Shown one piece after another: positions 2,097-14,101 of a DNA stretch of 22,169 bases. Within the stretch, counting starts at the first letter, position 1. Each line of letters begins with the position of its first letter. Made by a program: the position numbers and the translations under genes. The stretch is from Fusobacteriota bacterium. GTDB taxonomy: Bacteria; Fusobacteriota; Fusobacteriia; JAPLKR01. Where the stretch lies: the NCBI GenBank assembly GCA_026387965.1, contig JAPLKR010000026.1:1199-23367 (forward strand), in the 5' to 3' direction. A model generated the notes under the pieces. That model saw only the letters and a list, made by a program, of their open reading frames with translations, did no database searches and was not told the origin of the DNA.

Positions 2097-5000
2097 TTAT
2101 TTGATTCCTAAAGCTTTTGCTGTTGCTTGTCCCGTTGCCCAAGGAGCATGTGAATAGCCCTGCGTTAACATGCCGTTGGTTATATTAAGTGCATCCCAAT
2201 CTACACTCCAGTTCATATACGCGCTAACTGATGTTGCATTTGCAGCCATTTGAATAGCCGCTTTTTGAATTAACTCAGGAGTTGCAGTATAGAGTAAATC
2301 TCCACCAGCTGCCCCTTCAGTAGCCGGAATACCTAACCCAAATTTACTTGCTGGAATTTGAATTCCGATGGATCCATTCGCTTTAAATCCTTCGTTTGTT
2401 GTGGCAGCCCAAGCAAGTGCAGTTAAAAACTTATCCATACCATCGCCCGGTACTACTCTTTTATAAAATCCAGATACATCTTTTTCTGGACCAGTCGGCC
2501 CATTAGCGCCCCCTTGATTATAAGATTGCGGCCAGATATAGTTAATATTATCTAACCCTATCGCATTAATTAAGTCAATATAGAACGAGCTTTGAAGTGT
2601 ATGCGATGCCCATTGACCTGAACCATATGTATACGGAACTATGTAACACCATTCGGGAGCCATTGTAATCCAAAAATTTTGTCCTTTACTTCTGTAATGA
2701 GTTGCAATTGTCTTAACAGCTTCTCCTAAATATTGAGCACCTGTTGCAGATCCACCTTCTAAGTCAATATCTATTCCTTCAAATCCGTATTCATTAATAA
2801 TTTGTTCAATCTGTGTCACAAATTTTGCTTCATCTGCTTGAGATTTCATGACATTGGTAAAATGTTCTCCTCCTAGAGATACAATCACTTTTTTTCCTTG
2901 AAGTTTTGTGCTTATAATCATCTGCTTAAGTTGAGCTGAAGTATAAGTCGCCGGTGATGTTGACCCAGGATTTTTAAAAGCTAGTTCATAGTTTCCATCT
3001 GTTCCAGTCACTATAAATGCCGTAATAATCGTATTATATGAATTATCTATTTTGTCCATATCAACTACCTTCGAATCAATTTGTTTTCCAGCTGTTGGAT
3101 AAGAAGTGTTATTACCCCATAAACTCCAAAATGATGCATTTACAACACCCTTTGGTAGCGGAGGCACCTCTTCCGTTGTTTTAGCAGTAATTTTTTCTGT
3201 CGCTATTGTTGCACCTTTACTATCTAACGCCGTTACAGTAATACTATAACTTGTATTCGCTGTTAAATTTGATATCGTTTTAGTTAAAGGTTCACTGCTT
3301 TTCACATTCGATGTCGTTACTAGTGGCATTGACGTAACAGTATAGTTTACTGATCCAGGAATCGCATCCCATTTTACGGAAACAAAATCTTTTCCTACAC
3401 TTGAAAGAGATAAATTCAATTCTGCTATTTTATTTGTCGTGAGCGGTACAACATCACTTGCACCGACAACAACACCTGTTGAATTCATACTCTTAACTTG
3501 GAAGTTATAAGCGGTATTTGGCAATAATTTTTTTGCCATATAACTTAATGTAACTTGCGGTTGACTTGCTACACCATTTTGAATCACAGTATAACTCGTT
3601 GCATCTTTGACTGCGACCCATGTGAAATTAATTGAATCTGCCGCTATCATACCTGTCGTTAAATTAATCTTACTCACTACAGGGCCTGGCGGGGGTCCTG
3701 ATATGTTATTTTGAATTGCCACTAAATCTGATTTTATGTTACTATTTTGTGGTCCTACAGCCCAATACATAACACCTATACCATTATCGCTTGCATATTT
3801 TGCTTGAATTCCAATTTGCTCTGAAGGTTCAACATAGTTTGAATTTTCCGGATCCCATTGCTTTGCTCCATCTAGTCCTAAAACTATTTTGCTTGGAGAA
3901 ACATATTTCGAGAAATTTGCAATAGCGCCTTTGAACCCAAGAGTGCTCGCTACTTGTGGATCAACATATTTTGAACCAGCATCATATGCCATGATATTTA
4001 CCCAGTCCACTTTAGACATTACTGCTTGATTTTTAAGTAGTGGTAGCATTTCCCCTGCATGAGCTGATACACCTATCCCATTATATAAAGGCGTAAATGT
4101 ATTGGAATTTGCATCATCAGCTGCTGTTGAAACGCACGTAATTGAAATATATTTGTTTGGCATTTTTGCTTTAAATGCTGTAATAAATTTTCCTACATTG
4201 GTAAGCGCTGCTTGAGGGAATGCACCACCAGATTCTAAATCTAAATCAATTCCATCGGGCTGTACTGTTCCAAGTTTTATATTATTAGTTACCCACCATC
4301 CTTGATTTTTATAGGCAGGATAGTTAGTGTTTAAAATAGTAGCAATATTATTCACTAGATCGTTTATGTCCGAATCGCTAGCAGTTGCAAAAAACGATTC
4401 CCAAACAGAATTATAAGTAGCGCCTCCAAGCGAAAGCATCACTTTTGAATTTGGATTATCATATTTAAATTTTGTCCAATTCCAATACTGATTCGCAACA
4501 CTTTGACCACCCTCTTCAGGAATCTTCATTGAACCATTCACATCTGAAATAGTTTTTGAAGTAATATTAAAAAACGATAAATTAATCACATTTACATTAC
4601 TTGGAAGTAATTCTGAAAAATTCAATGTAGACGCCCATGTAGCATAGTATACTTCAAATATATTCGAAGTCACCGGAGTTGTTCCAGAAGCTGTTTTTAA
4701 CGTAGCACTGCCTGATGCCACTATAGCTCCTGAAGCATTATAAGCTATTACTTGATAGTTATAGTTTGTATTCTCTGCTAAACCTGTATCATTGAAACTT
4801 GTTGTCGATAGTAATGTTTTAGAGATACTACCATCACGAAGTACTGTATACGTTGATACCCCACTTGGTGCAGTCCAAGAAAGCTCAATACTTGTTGTGG
4901 TTTTTGATTTCGAATTTAAAGTCAAAATTTGTTGAATTTTAGTTGTGACCGAAGTTTCTTCGCTTGTTGCTAAAACTTTACCACTCGCATCTACTGCTTG

Positions 5001-6500
5001 AATTTTTAGTGTATACTTTGTATTTTGCAGTAAACTTTTTAAAGAGTAAGTCAATGTAGAAATAGAAGCCACTTGAGTATTATTAGAAAATATCAAATAT
5101 TTATTAGTTCCTTCCACAGTATTCCATGAAAAATCAATTGAAGTTATCCCTATTTCAGAAAAAGTTATATTCAAATTGGAGATATTCCCTGAAGTTGTAA
5201 ATGATTTTACATCACTTGTTCCGATGACACTCCCACTTACGTTATTTGCTGTAACATATACAGTATAGTTTTTTGACGCTTCTAAATTAATGAATGAATA
5301 AGTTAACGGTGAAGGTGAAGTAACTGTTCCCACTTTCGTACTTCCTAAATAAAGTGTATAACTACTAGCATTCGCAACACCTGACCAAGAAATATCTGCT
5401 TGTTTTGCAGCAACCGTTCCTAAAGTAATTACTGGCTTTGTTTCTATCGGTGTAGCCCCTATATCTGCAAGCGTCACTGAAGTCGCTTTATTTAATACAT
5501 TATTCACACTAAATGCAAAAGATACTATAGAGCCATTTGATAAATTTTTAGCACTTAAGAGCGAATTATTTGAAAATGTAATATACATCACATTATTAGC
5601 TACTTTTGTTGTGTACAAACTCGAGTCTATCCATGGCGATATATTCACGGCTGTTCCAGAAAATGTGGCCCCACTTGGCAAGGTAATGGTTACCACTTTG
5701 TTTTGAAGATTTGTATTAACCGAATCAGCGTATTTTAACGCTATTGTTCTGTACCATACATCGCCATTATCTGAAAATGTTGTGTTGTATACTTTTGGAA
5801 ATGGTGGCGATGCCGCATCTTGTGTCGTGAATGTAGCGCCATCACTTGTTGATAAAGTTTTGCCTGTGCTATCTAACGCGACTACATAACTCGTGTAATT
5901 TGTAGAAGCTAGTAAACTACTTAAAACTGTTCCTAGTGTTTGTACAGAAAGCTTTTTTGTGTTATTTACATATACATCATAACTAACTGCCCCAACAACG
6001 GCTGTCCAAGTAAGGTTCGCTTGGCTACTATTAACAGCTCCTATAGTGATAATAGGCTTTGTTATCACTGGCGGTGGTGCACTTCCTGCATCCATTAAAC
6101 TCACTGATACCGCTTTGCTTGTAACATTGCTTACATCCATACTAAAAGAAATCTGACTCCCTTTAGTAAGCTTTCTACTAATTAAATCTGCACTGTTTGA
6201 AAAAGTAACCGTCATGACGTTACTTTCAACTTTTACTGTGTAGAGATCTGCAGCCACCCACGGCGAGATATTTATACTCGCACCTGCAAAATTATTTCCC
6301 GTTGGCAGCTTAAGTGTAACTGTCTTATTTTGAAGTGTTGTATCAACACTATCATTATAAGTTACCACAATTGTTCTGTACCAATTCCCCACATTGTCGG
6401 AAAATGTCGTGTTATAAGTTTGCCCTTGCGCAAAAGAAATCCCAAACAAAGTAAAAAATACAAACAACATTAAAGTAATGAGCAAATTTTGTTTTTTCAT
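2097..6500 (-). CDS. Secreted multidomain chitinase with two GH18 catalytic domains
   Basis: This is a 1467-residue exported glycoside hydrolase expected to cleave chitin or a related N-acetylglucosamine polymer outside the cell. In order: signal peptide 1-24 (cut after SFA); module A1 about 28-140; Fn3-like 147-228; module A2 about 237-350, roughly half identical to A1 by eye; Fn3-like 354-437, 440-521 and 523-604; GH18-1 about 613-935 with SLGG and DGIDLDLE (acid Glu756), then MAYD; Fn3-like 942-1023 and 1025-1109; GH18-2 about 1117-1467 with SLGG, GIDIDLEGG (acid Glu1248) and a ChiD-like SYNQGG segment. The start at 6500 is preferred over an ATG 33 bases upstream, because AAAGGAG sits 6 bases before it and the signal peptide begins there. 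No sortase motif, S-layer module or C-terminal anchor is seen, so free release is likely. It has its own promoter and terminator, hence is monocistronic. Confidence 0.93.
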   Translation of the reverse strand: MKKQNLLITLMLFVFFTLFGISFAQGQTYNTTFSDNVGNWYRTIVVTYNDSVDTTLQNKTVTLKLPTGNNFAGASINISPWVAADLYTVKVESNVMTVTFSNSADLISRKLTKGSQISFSMDVSNVTSKAVSVSLMDAGSAPPPVITKPIITIGAVNSSQANLTWTAVVGAVSYDVYVNNTKKLSVQTLGTVLSSLLASTNYTSYVVALDSTGKTLSTSDGATFTTQDAASPPFPKVYNTTFSDNGDVWYRTIALKYADSVNTNLQNKVVTITLPSGATFSGTAVNISPWIDSSLYTTKVANNVMYITFSNNSLLSAKNLSNGSIVSFAFSVNNVLNKATSVTLADIGATPIETKPVITLGTVAAKQADISWSGVANASSYTLYLGSTKVGTVTSPSPLTYSFINLEASKNYTVYVTANNVSGSVIGTSDVKSFTTSGNISNLNITFSEIGITSIDFSWNTVEGTNKYLIFSNNTQVASISTLTYSLKSLLQNTKYTLKIQAVDASGKVLATSEETSVTTKIQQILTLNSKSKTTTSIELSWTAPSGVSTYTVLRDGSISKTLLSTTSFNDTGLAENTNYNYQVIAYNASGAIVASGSATLKTASGTTPVTSNIFEVYYATWASTLNFSELLPSNVNVINLSFFNITSKTISDVNGSMKIPEEGGQSVANQYWNWTKFKYDNPNSKVMLSLGGATYNSVWESFFATASDSDINDLVNNIATILNTNYPAYKNQGWWVTNNIKLGTVQPDGIDLDLESGGAFPQAALTNVGKFITAFKAKMPNKYISITCVSTAADDANSNTFTPLYNGIGVSAHAGEMLPLLKNQAVMSKVDWVNIMAYDAGSKYVDPQVASTLGFKGAIANFSKYVSPSKIVLGLDGAKQWDPENSNYVEPSEQIGIQAKYASDNGIGVMYWAVGPQNSNIKSDLVAIQNNISGPPPGPVVSKINLTTGMIAADSINFTWVAVKDATSYTVIQNGVASQPQVTLSYMAKKLLPNTAYNFQVKSMNSTGVVVGASDVVPLTTNKIAELNLSLSSVGKDFVSVKWDAIPGSVNYTVTSMPLVTTSNVKSSEPLTKTISNLTANTSYSITVTALDSKGATIATEKITAKTTEEVPPLPKGVVNASFWSLWGNNTSYPTAGKQIDSKVVDMDKIDNSYNTIITAFIVTGTDGNYELAFKNPGSTSPATYTSAQLKQMIISTKLQGKKVIVSLGGEHFTNVMKSQADEAKFVTQIEQIINEYGFEGIDIDLEGGSATGAQYLGEAVKTIATHYRSKGQNFWITMAPEWCYIVPYTYGSGQWASHTLQSSFYIDLINAIGLDNINYIWPQSYNQGGANGPTGPEKDVSGFYKRVVPGDGMDKFLTALAWAATTNEGFKANGSIGIQIPASKFGLGIPATEGAAGGDLLYTATPELIQKAAIQMAANATSVSAYMNWSVDWDALNITNGMLTQGYSHAPWATGQATAKALGIK

Positions 6501-6606
6501 TCTCTTCTCCTTTAAAATTTTTTTTAGTTCCACCCACTAACGTAATTAATTCCAATCATTTGTTTAAATTTACAGTATAACTATTTTTGGTAGATGTTAT
6601 AAAAAA

Positions 6607-7024: not shown

Positions 7025-9067
7025 ATGAGAAAAAAGCTACCAGAGTCGGCGTATAGACCTCTGAAAACTGGTGAGGTTTTCGAACCCATCATGTCACCAA
7101 AGGAAAATTATAGAGAAGCTACACTATTTAGTATTATTCCTGGAATTTTCTTCACAATAATTTTCACATTTGCTTTAATGTTTTTATCATTTAAACTTGG
7201 ACTTGGAATATCTGCCGATGTTCCTGTCGCTATTATTGGACTCGGTATGGCAACCACTATGAGAAGAACAAATGCTTTAGGGGAAGTCGTGGTTATGTTC
7301 TCAATGCCATACACTGCGAGCGGTATCATGGTAACAGGAACATTCTTACTTCCAACATTTGTTATCCTTGGAATGCATATCAACTACATTGATGTATTCT
7401 TTACAATCATTTTAGGTGGATTCTTAGGCATGATTATCGGTATCATCTACCGTGACTATTTTTGTAACAAAATGCACGGAATATTGCCATTCCCGGGAAG
7501 TTTTGGTACAGCAGAGATGCTAGTTGCCGCTGAAGGTGGCAGTGCTAAAGTGCTTATCATCAGTGGTATCATCGGATTTTGTTACGATTTAATTACACAA
7601 TGCATCGGCCTTTGGAATGAAGTTTTCTCAACAAGCTCATTTAAATGGGGAAATGCCCTAATGGTTAATGATAAGATGAATCTTCAATTAGACGTTTCAG
7701 CAGCATTTTTAGGCGTCGGTTATTTTACAGGGATTCGCTACTCTTCAGTTATCGCAGCAGGAGGTATTTTGGGAAGTTTTGTCCTAACTCCTCTAATCGC
7801 TATGATTGTTGCTCCGGGCCATTCTCCTGAATTTATTTCAATGACTACTGGTAAAATTTATTCTGGATATATTAAAACCATCGGTGTTGGTGCTCTAGTT
7901 ACCGCCGGTATTGTCTCTCTAATCACAATGCTTGGGGTTATTAGAGGAGCTATCGGTGATGTGTTTAAACAACTCATTAAGCCATCTGGACTTGGAGAGA
8001 GTAAAATAAGAACTGAGAAAGACCTATCACCAAAAACACTTGGGTATGGAATTATTATTGTACTCATAGCAACAGCTCTATTTATATTCTTTAGAATTGC
8101 TAATCACAATATTCTTTTTACGCTCGTTGCAATGGTTATTATTATTGTATTTACAATCGCATTCTCAATTATTGCTTCTCTTGCATTAGCTTACACAAGT
8201 AACGAGCCAGTATCGGGCATGACAATTTTAATGCTCTTGGTTGCAGCACTTGCATTTATCGCTATTAAAGTTCCTGAACACGATATTGCCCTCTTAACAC
8301 TCATGGTTGCATGTATTGTTATCACTATGCTTGGACAGGCGGGATATGTTGTAGGACTTTTCAAAGAGGCTCAATTACTTGGTTCAACACCAAGAACCCT
8401 ACAAATATGGGGACTCGTTTCTATCGTAATATCAGCACCCATTATCATCGCAGGCTTTCTTCTACTCGATAAGGCGTTTGGATTTGTAGGAACGGCTCAT
8501 CCTTTAGCAGCACCGCAAGCCAACGCATTTGCAAGTGTACTCACACCATTTATCTCTGGGCAACCTGCTCCATGGATTCTTTATGGAATTGGTGCTGCCA
8601 TTACAATAGTAATGTTCATGTTAAATGTGCCTATTATCCCATTTGCAATGGGGCTATACCTTCCAATCTCGCTTGTAATACCATTCTTTGTAGGTGGAGT
8701 TGTTTCATGGTTTGTTGGAAGTAGAAGCAAAGACGCTCAAGTCAACGCCGCTAGAAAATCCCGTGGAGTGGTTATCGCCTCTGGACTTATTGCCGGTGGT
8801 TCTCTTGCCGGATGTGCCACGGCCGTTCTCGCCGTTATGGGAATCAATCCTATGAATAGCACTTTTATCTCTAATTGGCAAAATACCAATGCCTCTCAAA
8901 TTTTAGGGCTTGTTGCTCTTATTTGCTTAATTATGTTTGTTGTTACTTATGCCTCTAAAGCTAAAGTAACCCGAGAAATTTTCAACAAACCAAAACGAAA
9001 ATTAACTCGAGAAGATATCAATAAAGCATTTGATATTGAAGCTGAAGGATTCGAAATTATTGACTAA
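7025..9067 (+). CDS. OPT-family oligopeptide/metal-chelate transporter
   Basis: This 680-residue integral membrane protein matches the OPT (oligopeptide transporter / yellow-stripe-like) family in length and pattern. About 14-16 hydrophobic segments span the sequence. An early helix runs into a conserved LGLGISADVP stretch (compare LGLKVGLTISASIP-like segments in bacterial OPT proteins), and LPFPGSFGTAEMLVAAEGG near residues 155-175 corresponds to the family's P-F-P...AE segment. Members import small peptides or metal-ligand complexes, usually by proton symport; the substrate here is unknown. The start has GGAGG 7 bases upstream. It is transcribed alone, facing away from the chitinase, and ends at a bidirectional terminator. 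The charged C-terminal tail (about 645-680) should be cytosolic. A link to chitin use is not supported by operon structure. Confidence 0.9.
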   Translation: MRKKLPESAYRPLKTGEVFEPIMSPKENYREATLFSIIPGIFFTIIFTFALMFLSFKLGLGISADVPVAIIGLGMATTMRRTNALGEVVVMFSMPYTASGIMVTGTFLLPTFVILGMHINYIDVFFTIILGGFLGMIIGIIYRDYFCNKMHGILPFPGSFGTAEMLVAAEGGSAKVLIISGIIGFCYDLITQCIGLWNEVFSTSSFKWGNALMVNDKMNLQLDVSAAFLGVGYFTGIRYSSVIAAGGILGSFVLTPLIAMIVAPGHSPEFISMTTGKIYSGYIKTIGVGALVTAGIVSLITMLGVIRGAIGDVFKQLIKPSGLGESKIRTEKDLSPKTLGYGIIIVLIATALFIFFRIANHNILFTLVAMVIIIVFTIAFSIIASLALAYTSNEPVSGMTILMLLVAALAFIAIKVPEHDIALLTLMVACIVITMLGQAGYVVGLFKEAQLLGSTPRTLQIWGLVSIVISAPIIIAGFLLLDKAFGFVGTAHPLAAPQANAFASVLTPFISGQPAPWILYGIGAAITIVMFMLNVPIIPFAMGLYLPISLVIPFFVGGVVSWFVGSRSKDAQVNAARKSRGVVIASGLIAGGSLAGCATAVLAVMGINPMNSTFISNWQNTNASQILGLVALICLIMFVVTYASKAKVTREIFNKPKRKLTREDINKAFDIEAEGFEIID

Positions 9068-12044: not shown

Positions 12045-14006
12045 CTACCGCCTAACTTCCATTTTTATGGTAGCACTCTTTTTATTATTATAATTTTCGA
12101 TATTCTCTTGAAGTTCCATAAAGTATCGGCTCTCTGTGCCACTAAATCCATAAAGTACCACACGGGTGATATTAAATTCTCTCTCTTCATCAATTCTCTC
12201 TAATAGTGCTTTTACTACAAAACTAGAACTTATGGTGTCAATCAAGTAGAGTACCTCTCCCACTTTATACGCTTGATAGGAAATATTGGCAAGTTTACCA
12301 AATACCTCTTGCTCCCAGTTGAAAATATACTCTTCGATAGAGGCACTAAGTGAACACCCATCTTGAAGTTTAAACGTATGAACAATATCTCTTTTTTGAG
12401 TTTCAGTGAGTACCTCTCCTGTATCAAAATTGAGTGTTGGAGAAAATGCTTTTAAACTCTCTTCATCTAAACTTTGAAGTTTTTCTTCCACTTTATACAC
12501 ACTAAAATCCAGTTGGTCTATCACTTTCTCATCAGTAACGCTAAACTCCTCTATCATCTTTTTATTGGCTCTTTTGATGCGTTCAATCCCAATAGATGTT
12601 ATATTGGTTGGTAAGTTGTTGTCAATGCAAAAAGAATAAGCAGGTTTGGATTTATCTATCTCCTCTTCCAGTTGCACCATTATCCATTTTCTACTCCCCA
12701 TTTTCCCTGTATTTTTATACACTTCTAAATTAAGTTGATTGACTGCGTGAGCAGTCGTTGCTGAACCTGAAAAGAAGTCGAGAATAAGGTCTGAAGAATT
12801 ACTATTTCCACTACTGCTATATTGTATCAATTTCTTTACAAATTGTGCTGGCTTAGGATTTGAAAATAATTCATCTCCAAATATTTCTTGTAATTCTCTT
12901 GTTCCAACTTGGTTCAAATATTCATTATCTGCTGAAAACAGTGTAGATACAGGGTTAAATGTTGTCTGTAATTCATTTTTATATCTTTTAAAAATAAATC
13001 CTCTATAGTTTTTTTTATGATTTTTTTTGAAAAGAATTTTACCATTTTTTATGTATTCTTCTAATGATTTTTTTGAAAAAGCCCAAAATCTTCCTCTTGG
13101 TGGATAGTCAACTTTTCCAGTATATGGATTAATTATTTCAAAATAAGTAGTTTCACCTCCACTTTTTGCACTTGGGTCACCTGATGTCCATTCACCATTT
13201 TCATCATTATCTGGATTAGAATAATCATCGAAAGTTTTTAATTCCCCCTCTAAAAAAACCTCTGTCTTTATTTTTGAAAAACAAAATAATAATTCGTGTT
13301 GCATATTTATTCCACACCCTTCATCACCAGTCATACTTTTTGTTTTTCTAATAATTTCCGCAACAAAATTCTCTTCTCCAAATATCTCATCACACAGCAA
13401 TTTCAACTGTGCTTGTTCATTGTCGTCAATGGATATGAATATCACTCCATCGTCTTTGAGAAGTCTTCTTGCGAGTACCAATCTTGGGTACATAAAAGTA
13501 AGCCAAGCAGAGTGGGTATTGCTTTTCCCCTCCCATTTCAGGATGCGTTCTTTCTCATCCTCTTTAATGATACCACTCACAACCAATTTTGAAAGCTCTC
13601 TCTCGCTCAGTCGTCTATCATCATTATAAACAAAATCACCATTTTGGGTATTATAAGGTGGGTCAATGTATATCATTTTTACTTGTTCTTTGTAAGCTAA
13701 ATTCAAATGACGTAAAACCTCAAGATTATCCCCCTTAATATAGATATTCTCTGACTCTACTTTTCTCTCTTCTGATATGTGCGTTCTTGGCTCTAAGTTT
13801 GCTAAATGCCTAGCGTAGCTCTTTCCAAGAAAATTCAAACCATAAGCTTCATTAAAAAACTTCGTATTAGAATCTAATATTTCTTGAAATTTTTCTAAAT
13901 TAAAGTTCCCAGATACATCAAACACTTCAGGGAACTCTTTTTTTAATAGTGATAGTTTTGGATTAACTACTTCATCTGCTCTGCTCTGCTCTGTAGAATT
14001 TGTCAT
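12045..14006 (-). CDS. mod: Type III DNA-adenine methyltransferase and specificity subunit (Mod)
   Basis: This is a 653-residue beta-class N6-adenine methyltransferase, the specificity and modification subunit of a type III system. Motif IV is IDPPYNTQNGD (Asp115-Tyr118) and the AdoMet motif I is DFFSGSATT (410-418), in the IV-before-I order typical of Mod. The target-recognition region should lie between them, about 220-380. The ATG at 14006 has AGGGGTG upstream and an extended -10 promoter. Codons 6-11 run through a CAGAG pentanucleotide repeat (three units plus CAG on the coding strand); one unit fewer or more leads to an in-frame stop within a few codons, the pattern of phase-variable mod genes. 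The central part is more A/T-rich than the ends and has two A8 runs, compatible with exchange of the recognition domain. Confidence 0.94.
   Translation of the reverse strand: MTNSTEQSRADEVVNPKLSLLKKEFPEVFDVSGNFNLEKFQEILDSNTKFFNEAYGLNFLGKSYARHLANLEPRTHISEERKVESENIYIKGDNLEVLRHLNLAYKEQVKMIYIDPPYNTQNGDFVYNDDRRLSERELSKLVVSGIIKEDEKERILKWEGKSNTHSAWLTFMYPRLVLARRLLKDDGVIFISIDDNEQAQLKLLCDEIFGEENFVAEIIRKTKSMTGDEGCGINMQHELLFCFSKIKTEVFLEGELKTFDDYSNPDNDENGEWTSGDPSAKSGGETTYFEIINPYTGKVDYPPRGRFWAFSKKSLEEYIKNGKILFKKNHKKNYRGFIFKRYKNELQTTFNPVSTLFSADNEYLNQVGTRELQEIFGDELFSNPKPAQFVKKLIQYSSSGNSNSSDLILDFFSGSATTAHAVNQLNLEVYKNTGKMGSRKWIMVQLEEEIDKSKPAYSFCIDNNLPTNITSIGIERIKRANKKMIEEFSVTDEKVIDQLDFSVYKVEEKLQSLDEESLKAFSPTLNFDTGEVLTETQKRDIVHTFKLQDGCSLSASIEEYIFNWEQEVFGKLANISYQAYKVGEVLYLIDTISSSFVVKALLERIDEEREFNITRVVLYGFSGTESRYFMELQENIENYNNKKSATIKMEVRR
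13976..13993. repeat. Pentanucleotide tandem repeat at the mod 5' end
   Basis: CTGCT repeated three times plus CTG on the plus strand (CAGAG units on the mod strand). It begins 11 bases before the end of the mod start region (ATG at 14004-14006). As the unit is five bases, any single-unit slippage shifts the mod reading frame. Confidence 0.9.
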
Positions 14007-14042
14007 TATTTCACCCCTCTGTCAAGCTTTTTCATCTAACTT

Positions 14043-14051
14043 ATTATACCA
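14043..14051 (-). promoter_or_regulatory. Extended -10 promoter of the mod-res operon
   Basis: TGGTATAAT on the minus strand is a perfect extended -10 element (TGn plus TATAAT). The best -35-like sequence, TTGTAT, is 19 bases away and weak. The element lies directly after the peroxiredoxin terminator, so the operon is insulated. Confidence 0.65.
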
Positions 14052-14070: not shown

Positions 14071-14101
14071 CAAAAATAGACTCTCAAAATTTGAGAGTCT
14101 A
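14071..14101 (-). terminator. Intrinsic terminator of the peroxiredoxin gene
   Basis: Minus-strand stem TAGACTCTC / GAGAGTCTA with an A/T loop that can extend the pairing to 12 bp, followed by TTTTTG. It begins 13 bases after the gene's stop. Confidence 0.88.

Follow-up and report, generated by a model that had tools for sequence, protein, structure and literature searches.

A complete type III restriction-modification operon

The window analysed here, a stretch of 22,169 nucleotides from a Fusobacteriota genome of 1.79 Mb in 141 contigs, carries two adjoining genes, mod and res (Table 1), with res starting 2 bases past the mod stop codon. Mod matches Pfam N6_N4_Mtase and T3RM_EcoP15I_C, is called MTase_III by PADLOC (2e-141), and matches the solved Mod structures PDB 6k0w and 4zcf. 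With DPPYN at residues 115-119 and FFSGS at residues 411-415, it has the beta-class motif order (DPPY, then FxG) together with the EcoP15I C-terminal domain that define type III (EcoP15I) methyltransferases. Res matches NCBIfam PRK15483 over its length (4e-286), as well as PADLOC REase_III and Pfam ResIII and RE_endonuc, and so provides the adjoining helicase and endonuclease domains of a type III system. Judged from sequence, both genes are intact and the locus is a complete EcoP15I-type type III restriction-modification operon. In the mod leader, a ribosome-binding-site-like AGAGGGG directly precedes the ATG and a TATAAT lies about 40 bases upstream; a consensus promoter scan detected no -35/-10 pair on the mod strand.

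Elsewhere in the window, positions 2097-6533 (minus strand) encode a protein of 1478 aa in which two stretches belong to glycosyl hydrolase family 18 and fibronectin type III repeats also occur. By eye its start resembles a signal peptide, and it is probably a secreted chitinase-like enzyme.

Table 1. Features of the mod-res locus (window positions)
Feature	Position	Strand	Basis or remark
mod, type III DNA adenine methyltransferase, 653 aa	12045..14006	-	Pfam, PADLOC and PDB matches
res, type III restriction endonuclease subunit, 978 aa	9106..12042	-	NCBIfam, PADLOC and Pfam matches
Pure 19-bp pentanucleotide tract, (CAGAG)3.8 on coding strand	13975..13993	-	Codons 5-11 of mod; present count in frame (ON)
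mod leader	14007..14050	-	Read from sequence
Terminator-like 11-bp stem-loop followed by T run	14077..14101	-	Between mod and upstream peroxiredoxin gene

A pentanucleotide repeat in the first codons of mod

The coding strand of mod opens ATG ACA AAT TCT ACA GAG CAG AGC AGA GCA GAT GAA, and the repeat within it begins at base 14 of the gene, reading CAGAGCAGAGCAGAGCAGA on the coding strand and (TCTGC)3.8 on the plus strand. The initial annotation had recognised CAGAG three times plus CAG here; the tract is as described, while the codon range given for it, 6-11, starts one codon too late. The exact 15-mer of three CAGAG units occurs only once in the genome.

We computed the reading frames for changes of -3 to +3 units. 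Loss of one or two CAGAG units brings a stop at codon 10 and gain of one or two a stop at codon 15, whereas mod stays open at -3, 0 and +3 units, with products of 648, 653 and 658 aa respectively; mod thus contains a non-triplet repeat within its open reading frame that yields early frameshift stops in two of every three counts. These frames bear out what had been worked out by hand, namely that losing one unit leaves a 9-codon product ending right behind the tract, that gaining one leads to a stop a few codons on, and that either change would turn Mod off while the present count is ON. The next in-frame ATG lies only at codon 111. GTG28 and TTG57 are also in frame, and translation of a shifted mod might restart weakly at one of them, which counts against OFF switching.

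How much weight the frames can bear depends on how often such stops arise. Of 280 ORFs in the same genome, 36% meet a stop within 10 codons in each of the two shifted frames, and the share rises to 86% when the limit is set at 30 codons. Because early off-frame stops are so common, the frame logic of the mod tract is not diagnostic: stopping on a shift is ordinary behaviour for any non-triplet unit.

Chance, codon use and conservation at the tract

As a background for period-5 tracts we used 621 kb of stretches from the same genome. Tracts of at least 17 bp were absent from 6 Mb simulated under a fourth-order Markov model of this genome, and those with a self-match run of at least 14 numbered four in the 621 kb of real sequence against none in about 5 Mb of simulated sequence. 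For periods 4, 6 and 7, no tract with a self-match run of at least 14 was found in the 621-kb real sample. The mod tract therefore exceeds what base composition predicts, yet it has counterparts elsewhere in the genome, where five-base tracts are mildly over-represented and some are long enough for instability.

Codon use points in the same direction. GAG, CAG and AGC, as used in the tract, are minority codons in this genome, and the five synonymous choices made there have a joint probability of about 0.0014 under local codon usage, which suggests that the repetition is at the DNA level. The encoded peptide, EQSRA(D), belongs to an N-terminal tail in which eight Mod homologues share no conserved residue, the first invariant residues being L21 and P26; a conserved protein sequence at this position, which the initial annotation had named as evidence against a switch, is accordingly not what the homologues have.

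Other repeat tracts in this genome and in related genomes

The best phase-variation candidate in the sampled part of the genome is a different tract, (TATAA)12, which spans 60 bp (L154:8823-8882, G000 contig C57) and forms overlapping TATAAT boxes. It precedes a LysR-family gene (7943-8788, minus strand), lying 35-94 bases ahead of the gene's start. A shorter TATAA tract (21 bp, 4.2 copies) is found upstream of a gene reading like a ribonucleotide reductase. Another repeat, (TAGTG)5.8, occupies 29 bp (L046:2769-2797, G000 contig C2) in the PAS-like part of a PAS/HD gene, probably a decayed sensor gene, whose coding sequence is now split over several frames.

The genome holds a second type III mod-res locus (L031:2060-5795, contig C47), which we considered as a second switch and rejected: it is a decayed copy, with a truncated res and a mod that shows no repeat at the site of its frameshift. 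Short interspersed repeats lie between the two genes of that locus (4446-4571).

Within Fusobacteriia more widely, two mod genes carry a mid-gene poly-G tract just after DPPYNTG. One has G9 (L017, near position 1467), is OFF at present and would be ON at G7 or G10; the other has G12 (L030, near 1458), is likewise OFF, and would be ON at G10 or G13, such that a single additional G would restore either gene. The presence of such genes in two genomes makes it likely that type III mod phase variation occurs in the class, with another kind of tract. At the matching place a further contig (L002) ends in a run of 77 C, which such a tract may have produced as an assembly artefact.

The GAGCA unit in viral contigs

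CAGAG and GAGCA are the same unit in different register, and a scan of viral contigs for (GAGCA)4 returned 81 stretches. When 82 GAGCA tracts were classified against the longest sense frame, 33 lay inside it, 25 near its 3' end and 14 at its 5' end; that most are inside or near the 3' end indicates that the unit expands for reasons besides phase variation. Neither a gapped pattern designed for other tract lengths nor the published primer for modS of Streptococcus suis had a match in the viral contigs.

One viral sequence (L139:1251-1329) has GAGCA x15.8 straight after an ATG, ahead of a DNA-methyltransferase-like ORF with a DPPFG motif, and at the present count this ATG and the ORF are in different frames. 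Three other viral contigs have homologous ORFs in which a GAGCA tract occupies the same place but differs in length among the relatives, measuring 124 bp in L130, 49 bp in L119 and 54 bp in L111.

Is the mod tract a switch?

Taken together, we consider the mod tract a candidate switch of a known kind that is probably low-rate or dormant. More specifically, we give about an even chance to the reading that it belongs with the repeat-controlled type III mod genes already known, as a contingency locus that is now ON and either switches at a low rate or is latent. Under this reading, replication slippage by one or two units would shift the frame of mod into the early stops described above. A type III Res needs Mod for DNA binding, and methylation and restriction would consequently be lost together when mod is OFF, and gene regulation might be affected; both activities would come back on if the count changed by three units or reverted to the one seen now. 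The tract itself may be left over from a longer one that has shortened, or may be starting to grow into one. That the gene looks like a switch on paper stands, and is strengthened by an intact type III mod-res pair and by a unit and a location like those of proven phase-variable mod genes; the further step in the initial annotation, to a phasevarion, is still conjectural.

Tract length bears most directly on rate. Surveys of phasomes have required at least 5 copies for pentanucleotides (PMC6321876, PMC5953494), and a GAGCA[6] tract in S. suis LSS66 was called highly stable (PMC6265453). At 3.8 copies the mod tract is below the five-copy cut-off, and we therefore do not claim mod as a phase-variable mod gene. 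At this length slippage should be rare, in agreement with the earlier expectation of a low rate, and it is for this reason that a low-rate or latent locus is the best account. The count comes from one genome, the sole member of its family among the 100 genomes searched; a search by genus likewise returned this genome alone.

A serious contender, to which we assign somewhat less than an even chance, is that the tract is a chance or neutral low-copy microsatellite, in which a few slippage duplications have accumulated in a tolerant N-terminal tail while mod is expressed constitutively, with no meaningful switching. The length below survey cut-offs fits this well, as do the commonness of off-frame stops in this genome, the expansion of GAGCA as in-frame linkers within phage genes, and the occurrence of four pentanucleotide tracts in the 621-kb sample, one of them in the fragmented and probably decayed sensor gene. 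It would nevertheless leave two things as coincidence: that the tract falls within codons 1-11 of a mod gene, and that its unit is identical to that of modS. The (TATAA)12 tract also demonstrates that repeats of five bases are able to lengthen in this genome.

At the opposite extreme, the locus could be an active phasevarion, with a tract that varies at high rate in nature, a consensus that happens to be the short ON allele, and a Mod that controls a regulon. Its anatomy matches that of modS and of the Neisseria mod, and relatives in the class have poly-G mod tracts in OFF states, yet the low copy number speaks against it and we regard it as distinctly unlikely. Least probable of all, and in our view very improbable, is that the repeat has been selected for its peptide tail (EQSRA) or for an effect on early translation and not for switching. 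Codon choice in early codons can affect initiation, and the tract occupies just such codons; EQSRA linkers also recur in phage proteins. Against this, the tail has no residue common to the homologues.

Returning to the reading of the tract as a contingency locus, a broader and rather doubtful extension is that this deep-branching lineage of Fusobacteriia employs a set of pentanucleotide contingency loci (CAGAG in mod, TATAA x12 before the LysR gene, and the PAS gene) and that the mod tract expands and contracts in nature, which would make it a fusobacterial type III phasevarion with the S. suis unit. Our literature search, whose coverage did not extend to the main survey of type III mod repeats, found no described fusobacterial phasevarion. 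If the tract varies, a fusobacterial lineage would join the known type III phasevarions, and the GAGCA unit would be in use in a phylum unrelated to S. suis. If it does not, the locus is a warning that a non-triplet repeat of 3-4 copies near a start codon will always resemble a switch on paper.

Comparison with known mod genes

In domain content (N6_N4_Mtase plus T3RM_EcoP15I_C, with an adjoining Res) the system resembles the Mod-Res of EcoP15I and EcoP1I, Mod identity being about 36-39%; it differs from the EcoP15I-type relative L044 in that the latter has no repeat tract at its 5' end. The nearest relative found is a plasmid mod from Ilyobacter polytropus, also in Fusobacteriia, which is 46% identical and is likewise followed by res, but whose 5' end lacks a simple repeat. 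The proposed search for homologues with longer tracts found none among the nearest relatives and one further afield, in Neisseria gonorrhoeae. The mod gene there (L040), probably modB, encodes a 37% identical EcoP15I-type Mod, and its pentanucleotide tract likewise leads directly into the conserved LKKxFP block, though the unit is CCAAC and, at 11.8 copies, is present three times as often.

The closest parallel in the repeat itself is modS of S. suis, a type III mod gene with GAGCA(n) near its start, in which ON/OFF switching has been proven by Western blot and methylome at 17-21 copies (PMC8125046), and tract length varies across 41 strains (PMC6265453). As in modS, the tract described here is near the 5' end, its unit is identical apart from register, and one of three frames is ON. 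Characterised S. suis strains have 17-28 copies (PMC8125046, PMC6265453) against 3.8 here.
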